A stretch of 58,757 bases of DNA, from contig JAJYIV010000004.1 of the NCBI GenBank assembly GCA_021789915.1, positions 1-58,757 on the forward strand, read 5' to 3'. Below are positions 8,716 through 50,148 of the stretch, piece by piece. Made by a program: the position numbers and the translations under genes. The notes below the pieces were generated by a model. That model was not told where the DNA came from. It did not search any database and was given only the letters and a program-made list of their open reading frames with translations. How positions within the stretch are numbered: position 1 is the stretch's first letter; each line of letters begins with the position of its first letter. This DNA comes from a bacterium (GTDB lineage Bacteria; Patescibacteriota; Patescibacteriia; UBA9934; GWF2-40-263).

Positions 8716-8791
8716 GGGCCCGTGGGAGTAACGGCAGCTCCACTCGTTTTGACACCGAGAAGTACGGGTTCGAATCCCGTCGGGTCCACCA
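8716..8791 (+). ncRNA. R1 tRNA-like RNA with CCA end and G3-U70
   Basis: A 76-base tRNA-shaped sequence. The acceptor GGGCCCG pairs with CGGGTCC and includes a G3-U70 wobble, A73 and an encoded CCA. The D arm is GGAG/CTCC with GG in the loop and the T arm is ACGGG-TTCGAAT-CCCGT. The anticodon arm is odd: CTCGT/CCGAG with a T-C mismatch at the top, loop TTTGACA and C at position 37. Its anticodon would be TGA if read normally, while G3-U70 is the alanine identity element. It may be a charged but non-decoding RNA, a masked tRNA or a degenerate tRNA; standard tRNA status is doubtful. Confidence 0.65.
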
Positions 8792-14505: not shown

Positions 14506-14535
14506 AAAAACGCCCCGCGGAGGCGGAGCGTTTTT
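14506..14535 (-). terminator. terminator of the nested tRNA-Pro transcript
   Basis: On the minus strand AAAAACGCTCCGC and GCGGGGCGTTTTT form a hairpin with a T tract, starting 2 bases after the CCA end of the outer tRNA. Confidence 0.8.
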
Positions 14536-14536
14536 C

Positions 14537-14810
14537 TGGTCGGGCTGGCGGGGCTTGAACCCGCGGCCTCTTCTCTTGTCGCACGCTGTGTCGGGCTAGC
14601 CGGACTTGAACCGGCGGCCTCTTGCACCCCATGCAAGCGCTCTAGCCATCTGAGCTATAGCCCGACACAGCGTGCGACTCGAGCCGGGGTTGTCCGGCCC
14701 GGCTTCCGCCGTGCATCGGTCAACCCGTTCAGCCGGCTCGGAGCAACGCCGGTTGCTCCTTGCTTCGGCTGAACCCCCATGCAAGCGCGCTACCACTGCG
14801 CCATAGCCCG
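14537..14810 (-). ncRNA. outer tRNA-Pro-like RNA split by a 190-base insert that holds a second tRNA-Pro
   Basis: On the minus strand the RNA begins CGGGCTATGGCGCAGTGG, a tRNA 5' half with acceptor, D arm (GCGC/GCGC) and CTTGCATGGGG, and ends with a tRNA 3' half (GCGGG-TTCAAGC-CCCGC T arm, CAGCCCG acceptor strand and ACCA). The acceptor halves pair at 6 of 7 positions. Between them lie a hairpin (GGAGCAAC/GTTGCTCC), a GTTCAGCCG/CGGCTGAAC helix, a GGGTTG/CAACCC helix and a complete tRNA-Pro(GGG) on a 14-bp extra stem. A TTGCCG-17-TACACT promoter lies just upstream and a terminator just downstream, so it is one transcript. Whether the outer RNA is spliced, functional as is or a relic is unknown. 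Confidence 0.55.
14591..14664 (-). tRNA. tRNA-Pro (anticodon GGG), nested
   Basis: On the minus strand: acceptor CGGGCTA/TAGCCCG, D arm GCTC/GAGC, anticodon arm CTTGC-ATGGGGT-GCAAG giving anticodon GGG, T arm GCCGG-TTCAAGT-CCGGC and discriminator A73. C1-G72 and A73 fit proline identity. CCA is not encoded. The acceptor stem continues outward for 14 further perfect base pairs (14578-14591 with 14665-14678), which would hinder normal end processing. The sequence lies inside the insert of the outer tRNA-Pro-like RNA. Confidence 0.75.
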
Positions 14811-14930: not shown

Positions 14931-15917
14931 ATGCGTCTGAACGATCCCGTGTACGGCTCCGCAGAGGTGACAGAGCCCTTGCTCGTCGCCTTGATCGAAA
15001 GCCCCGCGCTGCAGCGGCTCAAAGGCATCAGCCAAAACGGCTACATGACGCCGTGGCATTCCGGCGCGACGACGAGCCGCTTCGATCATTCCGTCGGCGT
15101 AATGCTGATGCTGTGCCGCGCGGGCACTTCGGTGGAAGAGCAGGCTGCCGGGTTGATCCACGACGTCTCTCACGGCGTGTTTTCCCATGCGATTGATTAT
15201 CTGCGCGGCGAAGCGGATTGGGAGTTCCAGGATCGGATCATGGGATCATTCCTGCAGGCGCGCACGGATCTTCCGGCGCGGACGGCGGCGCACGGGTATC
15301 CGATGGATCTTCTGCTGGATGACGCGCGCCATCCGCTCAAGGAGCGGCCGCTGCCGGACGTGTGTGCGGATCGTTTGGACTATTCGCTGCGCGACGGGCT
15401 CGCGTTCGGCGTCCTCTCCCGATCGGAAGCCCGACGTTTTTTGGACGCCCTGACGGCGGAAAACGGCCGCTGGGTGTTTCGCAACCTCGAGGCGGCACGG
15501 GCGTTCTCCGAGATGTTCCGCGTCATGAGTCGCGACTGGTGGTCCGGATTTCCGTCAGCGGTCGCCTTCACCTACACCGTGGCGTTTCTTCGCCATGCGT
15601 TGAAAGCCGGATACGTCACGGAGGATGATTTGTACGGGACGGAATCGGATTTCCTTGCTCGGGCGAATGCGCGGACGGATGACGCCGCCGCGTCCCGGCT
15701 CTGGCGCCGCATGCATGATCCGAACGGATGGCGCAACGATCCGTCGCAGCCGGACGCCAGGATCGTGTGCAAGTCGCGCATGGTCGATCCGCTCGTGAAA
15801 ACGGCGGGCGGCCCCGTCCGCCTCTCGGTGCTGCAGCCGGATTGGGCCGGCATCGTCGCGGCGGAATCCGCGCCGAGGGAGTGGTTTCCAGTGTACGACA
15901 GTGCGCGTGACACATGA
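14931..15917 (+). CDS. HD-domain phosphohydrolase
   Basis: A soluble 328-aa metal-dependent hydrolase of the HD superfamily. Metal-ligand motifs are clear: RFDHSVGV (His), GLIHDVSHGVFSHA (HD plus a following HxxxxH) and a later Asp in DVCADRLDYSLRD. This arrangement resembles the SAMHD1/dGTPase-like HD proteins that act on nucleotides. The N-terminal NDPVYGSAEVTEPL and LQRLKGISQ resemble that group as well. Substrate is not known. A TAGGAT -10 box lies about 18 bases before the ATG. Confidence 0.8.
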   Translation: MRLNDPVYGSAEVTEPLLVALIESPALQRLKGISQNGYMTPWHSGATTSRFDHSVGVMLMLCRAGTSVEEQAAGLIHDVSHGVFSHAIDYLRGEADWEFQDRIMGSFLQARTDLPARTAAHGYPMDLLLDDARHPLKERPLPDVCADRLDYSLRDGLAFGVLSRSEARRFLDALTAENGRWVFRNLEAARAFSEMFRVMSRDWWSGFPSAVAFTYTVAFLRHALKAGYVTEDDLYGTESDFLARANARTDDAAASRLWRRMHDPNGWRNDPSQPDARIVCKSRMVDPLVKTAGGPVRLSVLQPDWAGIVAAESAPREWFPVYDSARDT

Positions 15918-50071: not shown

Positions 50072-50148
50072 GGGCCCGTGGAGGTAATAGGCAACCTCGT
50101 CTAGGTCGCCACCAGAAGTTACGGGTTCGACTCCCGTCGGGTCCACCA
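50072..50148 (+). ncRNA. R2 tRNA-like RNA with CCA end and G3-U70
   Basis: A 77-base tRNA-shaped sequence with the same acceptor (GGGCCCG/CGGGTCC, G3-U70, A73) and encoded CCA as R1. The D arm is GAGG/CCTC with GG in the loop, and the T arm is ACGGG-TTCGACT-CCCGT. The anticodon arm TCTAG/CCAGA has an A-C mismatch, loop GTCGCCA and C at position 37; a formal anticodon would be CGC (Ala). The anticodon arm equals blocks a'-b' that pair with the leader RNA. A CCACG/CGTGG hairpin overlaps the CCA end and a G/T-rich terminator-like hairpin follows at about 50173-50215. Confidence 0.65.

Follow-up and report, generated by a model that had tools for sequence, protein, structure and literature searches.

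The DNA described here is a contig of 58,757 nucleotides, referred to below as the window. It is contig 38 of the 41 contigs of a small, ultra-reduced 1.06-Mb genome (G000) that stands alone in its own genus, within a family of what appear to be Ca. Uhrbacteria-like Patescibacteria; the rest of this genome was covered as stretches around its tRNA genes. The minus strand of the window carries, between positions 14810 and 14537, a complete tRNA-Pro(GGG) nested within another, tRNA-Pro-like sequence, whose anticodon loop it interrupts. An earlier note on this DNA had described such a nesting, and direct reading, ARAGORN and Rfam all agree with it; the end points that it gave for the outer sequence, 14810 and 14537, are exact. 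Read from 14810 to 14537, the unit consists of the outer 5' half, two hairpins, a 14-nt arm, the complete tRNA-Pro(GGG), a second 14-nt arm, and the outer 3' half with its CCA, and is followed by a terminator.

All parts of the unit lie on the minus strand. The outer 5' half (14775..14810, CGGGCTATGGCGCAGTGGTAGCGCGCTTGCATGGGG), recognized by direct reading and comparison with relatives, supplies the 5' strand of the acceptor stem, the D arm, the 5' strand of the anticodon stem, and ATGGGG. Two hairpins of the MFE fold separate this half from the inner tRNA: GTTCAGCCG...CGGCTGAAC at 14774-14727, the sequence of which is unique in the genome, and GGGTTG...CAACCC at 14726-14687. The inner tRNA (14590..14664) is flanked by a 5' arm, GTCGCACGCTGTGT (14665..14678), identified by folding and a genome-wide null, and by a 3' arm, ACACAGCGTGCGAC (14578..14591), identified by folding, which includes discriminator A73. 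The outer 3' half (about 14537..14577), read directly and through its 97% identity to ordinary tRNA-Pro(CGG/GGG) genes, contains a variable region with an extra AAGAG, the T arm, the acceptor 3' strand, and CCA, ending in CCCGACCA. Behind it, a scan located an intrinsic terminator (14506..14535), with a stem at 14525-14511(-) and then TTTTT. One promoter and one terminator had been proposed to bound the unit; the terminator is there, but the scan gave no consensus sigma-70 promoter, and by eye there is only a weak TTGCCG-17-TACACT. As a whole, the 270-nt unit folds with z = -7.1 relative to shuffles. Adjoining it at 14931-15917 is a gene for an HD-domain-like protein, named from its sequence only, with a match in one other genome of the family (41% identity). 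A search for an empty site by way of this gene gave no match in genome contigs and one distant match in the family, beside a tRNA-Ala.

The inner tRNA was called by ARAGORN at 14590-14664(-) and matches the Rfam tRNA model with 64 bits (E = 5e-13). All 21 of its cloverleaf pairs are canonical and its anticodon is GGG, as in a functional tRNA-Pro; the discriminator is followed by CAC instead of CCA, and CCA is not encoded. The genome's tRNA list, which the earlier note had suggested checking for another such gene, contains no other tRNA-Pro(GGG), with Pro-TGG and Pro-CGG found elsewhere in the genome. The inner copy is 97% identical to a tRNA-Pro(GGG) of another genus (G012) that likewise lacks CCA and about 90% identical to the others, so that by comparison it looks imported. 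The G012 gene has a long acceptor extension of its own with a sequence unrelated to that of the window helix; thus it is the pairing that recurs and not the letters. An IS200-like Y1 transposase gene (G012 C20:293-748, L089) is present about 2 kb from this tRNA.

The two arms form a perfect helix of 14 bp (14678-14665 with 14591-14578, 14/14 pairs), which lengthens the acceptor stem of the inner tRNA to a 21-bp helix, just as the earlier note had it. The 101-nt hairpin that holds the inner tRNA has a folding energy of -66.6 kcal/mol (z = -8.6), and none of the shuffles was as good. Among 48 tRNA genes of the window genome, six have a leader/trailer pairing score of at least 10, compared to 0.085 expected when leaders and trailers from different tRNAs of the same genome are paired at random. 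These are Trp, Pro-GGG, Ala-TGC, Phe, Ser-TGA and Gln-TTG, with Trp and the inner Pro at the top, and pairing as long as that of the inner Pro is not due to chance. We considered the helix as a required clamp against mispairing between the inner tRNA and the outer halves, but the effect in silico is modest, with cloverleaf pairing of the inner tRNA going from 0.83 to 0.79 once the arms are held open.

The outer copy is in a different state. Its D and T stems are still paired and its CCA is encoded, but the acceptor stem has an A7-C66 mismatch, and the anticodon stem is interrupted and damaged in its 3' strand, so that it lacks the intact stems of a functional tRNA-Pro. Its 5' half is of a common type: eight relatives have the identical sequence, if one gap is allowed, as the 5' half of an ordinary tRNA-Pro(GGG) gene. 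The differences between the two copies in the D and T stems, which had been taken as compensated changes, do exist; they predate the nesting, however, and are old differences between tRNA lineages. Since the outer halves match ordinary tRNA-Pro genes of relatives, the "compensated" stems existed before the break, and the paired D and T stems are inherited from the time when the outer copy was a normal gene. The further claim that the outer tRNA has been under selection for structure is unsupported, in view of these matches to single-copy genes, the lost anticodon stem, the A7-C66 mismatch, and the RtcB search described below.

Could both tRNAs nevertheless function, the insert and its inner tRNA being an intron whose excision joins the outer halves? 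Both halves keep their D and T stems, CCA, and a single terminator, as such a reading would need. A cmscan search of Rfam at E<=1, however, gave only tRNA and sub-threshold chance matches at the unit, with no covariance-model match to a group I intron or any other Rfam family. Among the four genomes searched for the RtcB ligase, it was not found in G000, G005 or G019 and was found in G060, a genome with a nested tRNA-Pro whose outer copy is without an anticodon altogether. Together with the damage to the anticodon stem and to pair 7-66, this makes splicing of the outer copy unlikely and a pair of working tRNAs extremely improbable.

The insert is unique in its own genome, where the best other match is 88% over 24 nt, and is therefore not a dispersed repeat; nor is there a phage or plasmid origin to be seen for the nested unit, which has only ordinary tRNA-Pro-like matches. 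Nor is the insert conserved in the 60 relatives searched. This uniqueness, and the restriction to a single lineage, weigh against the idea that the whole 270-nt RNA is functional and that its outer halves are kept in the role of a scaffold or of a decoy, for instance for integrases or for toxins that cut tRNAs, as does the small loss of inner cloverleaf pairing when the helix arms are opened (0.83 to 0.79). The strong fold of the unit would fit such a role, as would two features of the relatives described below, namely, outer shells that keep their acceptor and T stems in several genomes and T-loop elements in which a covarying core is retained on the T stem of the host. On balance, we regard it as very unlikely.

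Ordinary, uninterrupted tRNA-Pro genes occur throughout the family and order. The comparative search that the earlier note had called for showed that the nested arrangement nonetheless recurs in the same family, in G019, G005 and G060; the G005 and G019 cases came from listing the tRNAs of those genomes. In G019, the only tRNA-Pro(GGG) sits within a broken tRNA-Pro(GGG), of which the D loop and variable loop are interrupted by hairpins; a long leader/trailer helix encloses the inner copy, and the outer end of one helix arm copies the GCAT of the outer tRNA itself. The flanks of this locus are those of an uninterrupted gene in the congener G001. Relatives with ordinary tRNA genes and no conserved insert had been named in advance as evidence against the reading of the earlier note, and this holds in half, in that relatives have them at other loci and G001 is uninterrupted where G019 is nested. 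G060 has a tRNA-Pro(CGG) within a tRNA-Pro that has lost its anticodon. In G005, a tRNA-Pro(TGG) occupies the T loop of a tRNA-Pro that is otherwise identical to it, a tRNA-Val(CAC) lies within the D loop of a broken copy, and a tRNA-Ala(TGC) is flanked by what is left of another tRNA-Ala, its 5' part on one side and its 3' part on the other. Given these independent cases, in assemblies of 10 contigs (G005) and two contigs (G019) as well as in G060, an assembly error at the window locus is unlikely. Within the window genome, the only tRNA-Trp (C28:11732-11802, L074) has a leader/trailer helix of about 20 bp. Behind it lies the 3' part of another tRNA-Trp, its T loop occupied by a hairpin, and the Ser-TGA and Leu-CAG genes adjoin broken copies. 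The loop that is broken can be the D, anticodon, variable or T loop, and GC-rich hairpins fill the breaks.

Two further observations concern these genomes. The D loops of tRNA-Pro, Met, Thr and Ala copies in G019 (L004, L143, L123, L132) share a common two-hairpin unit, CCCCGACGC...AGGTCGGGG plus GTCCGACC...GCGTCGGAC, placed after the CAG of the D loop. The window genome has at least seven copies of a tRNA-Ala-like RNA (window 8716-8791 (+) and 50072-50148 (+); L080, L081, L082, L083, L084), with a similar one in G019. These have G3-U70, mostly CCA, and an irregular anticodon arm, score 36-46 bits, are often flanked by CCCGGG and GGGACCAACCGCCCC, and are labeled Ser-TGA or Ala by ARAGORN.

Counts were compared with a null of 1857 trials, in which the flanks of tRNAs for other amino acids were used. 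By a strict automatic test, nesting was seen for 6 of 399 distinct tRNA genes in the collected loci, compared to 0/1857 in the null, with one or two of the six (L222, L333) weak, as they rest on a 13-nt 5' match. The window case misses this strict test, since its outer 5' half is not similar enough to the inner copy. A 3' fragment alone accompanies 63/399 genes (null, 7/1857), a rate that is inflated by the nonrandom choice of loci, many of which were fetched through a tRNA-associated pattern; a 5' fragment alone accompanies 6/399 (null, 5/1857). Long acceptor helices are associated with nesting or a close broken copy: they are found in 7 of 18 such genes, compared to 10 of 374 others (Fisher p = 1.8e-6).

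A second, related structured element, of about 110 nt, is found beside tRNAs in 17 of the 60 relatives. It occurs at 58 sites that have a tRNA upstream, these tRNAs being of 15 identities, and its hosts include Uhrbacteria, Kaiserbacteria, Moranbacteria and Taylorbacteria, among others. Its pattern is GAAC-GCCGGAG-hairpin-CGAGGCGGTG(C/G)CCAGCCCGA-hairpin-CGAGAGGCG...GGC, with a core, CGAGGCGGTGSCCAGCCCGA, between the two hairpins (L219-L326; e.g., L226:1311-1700, L223:1311-1700 and L318), and tandem copies occur. The remaining pattern matches are in part copies at contig ends and in part due to chance, in GC-rich genes from bacteria that are not related. A complete tRNA usually precedes the element, at a distance of 112-125 nt. 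The left arm of the element is complementary to the T stem of that tRNA and is the reverse complement of the 3' half of the host tRNA; its right side leads into an exact repeat, 20-21 nt long, of the 3' end of the tRNA, starting at the T loop. There is covariation in the stems, and no Rfam family matches it. In L318, the element sits squarely in the T loop of a near-intact tRNA-Arg, which is followed by a complete duplicate, in what is a plain tandem duplication including the leader. This T-loop element is undescribed and extends across Patescibacteria; it supports the notion that hairpin elements target tRNA loops in these bacteria.

Several of these features could also come from errors of replication or repair, in which duplication of a tRNA and template switching at hairpins, with self-primed copying of one arm, produced the inverted arms and the nested second copy. 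The arms are perfect and unrelated in sequence from site to site, the G019 arm copies GCAT from the outer tRNA, the left arm of the T-loop element is the reverse complement of part of the host tRNA, and L318 is a simple duplication. Such errors leave unexplained why four G019 tRNAs have the two-hairpin unit at one and the same place in the D loop, and why the inner sequence in the window looks foreign, and we consider them a possible but unlikely cause.

The explanation that we favor, as probable though well short of certain, is that hairpin-rich DNA has invaded single-copy tRNA genes, leaving a working inner copy in the wreckage of the outer one. In the window, an ordinary single-copy tRNA-Pro would have been broken in its anticodon loop by the insertion, which may have brought along a complete tRNA-Pro(GGG) from another lineage or been immediately followed by one. 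This inner copy would now be the only working tRNA-Pro(GGG) of the cell and the outer halves a nonfunctional relic, probably still transcribed through to the old terminator. The perfect leader/trailer helix would make the inner tRNA fold as a closed domain, to be opened by RNase III and/or RNase P before CCA addition; the cell must cut such helices open, because the tRNAs that have them include its only tRNA-Trp. Similar insertions, palindromic and noncoding, appear to recur in the family, the hairpin-forming DNA being either inserted in tRNA loops or made there by hairpin-primed copying. Their tolerance would come from an intact copy of the same tRNA within or beside the wreck; every tRNA is nearly single copy, and therefore only cells that keep an intact copy survive. 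A possible mover of the hairpins is a Y1 (IS200/REP-type) transposase, with a PF01797 match in all six genomes searched, that in G019 falling below the curated cutoff; no excision product, target-site duplication or mobilizing enzyme was tied to the window insert. Other observations also count against the invasion of a now-dead outer gene: the insert occurs only once in its genome, where a dispersed element would typically be repeated; the search through the HD gene brought up no relative with an empty site at this locus; and the outer D and T stems still pair, which those of a long-dead relic need not do. More tentatively, as something that may be so but is rather less than probable, the nested Pro could be one of a group of undescribed noncoding mini-elements of Patescibacteria that live in the loops of single-copy tRNA genes and carry or regenerate a replacement tRNA in a long hairpin, so that breaking an essential gene is tolerated.

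In the literature searched, we came across no description of tRNA genes nested in this manner. As far as that literature goes, what is novel is that insertions break essential single-copy tRNA genes in every loop, with a whole replacement tRNA nested in the wreck. The locus makes several questions testable, namely, how a tRNA matures within a 21-bp helix, how cells with reduced genomes live through such insertions, and by what means the hairpins move. For annotation it is a warning as well, since broken outer tRNAs can be miscounted.

Mobile DNA classically lands in tRNA genes. Integrative elements are known to leave tRNA gene fragments and attL/attR sites, as cataloged by Islander, and tRNA genes are known targets of integrases, whose islands leave one complete and one partial tRNA (PMC4383910; PMC9897764). 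The window resembles these in having a complete tRNA next to a partial copy that is broken within a loop. Many tRNAs here also have, beside them, an exact duplicate, 20-21 nt long, of a tRNA 3' end. The locus might accordingly be read as the relic of a site-specific element, whose tyrosine integrase recombined in the tRNA loop and restored a complete tRNA before the element shrank to a scar. It differs, though, in that the complete tRNA is flanked by an outer half on either side, and att exchange would not leave a 5' half beyond the complete tRNA; in that the inner and outer 3' parts are about 81-88% identical and so form no identical direct repeat; in that about 200 nt of hairpins and tRNA hold no integrase or other genes; and in that the inner copy lies in a long perfect hairpin. 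We therefore hold such an origin to be distinctly unlikely.

Palindromic insertion elements are known from Rickettsia. Other palindromic elements include REP/BIME and the GTAG- and CGTC-tagged repeats (PMC3733652). Like these, the window insert has short GC-rich hairpins within a gene, and the six genomes searched have a Y1-type transposase; here, however, the hairpins have no dispersed copies, lie in a tRNA loop, and in one case hold a complete tRNA. Intron-containing, split and permuted tRNAs, with archaeal BHB introns (PMC4090602) and bacterial group I introns, share the interruption of the anticodon loop, but the window has neither an intron family match nor an RtcB that was found in its genome, its insert contains a whole tRNA, and the outer anticodon stem is damaged. 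The tRNA-Sec gene nested within selB (PMC8124441) is likewise a tRNA gene within another gene; its host is protein coding, whereas the host in the window is a broken tRNA for the same amino acid.
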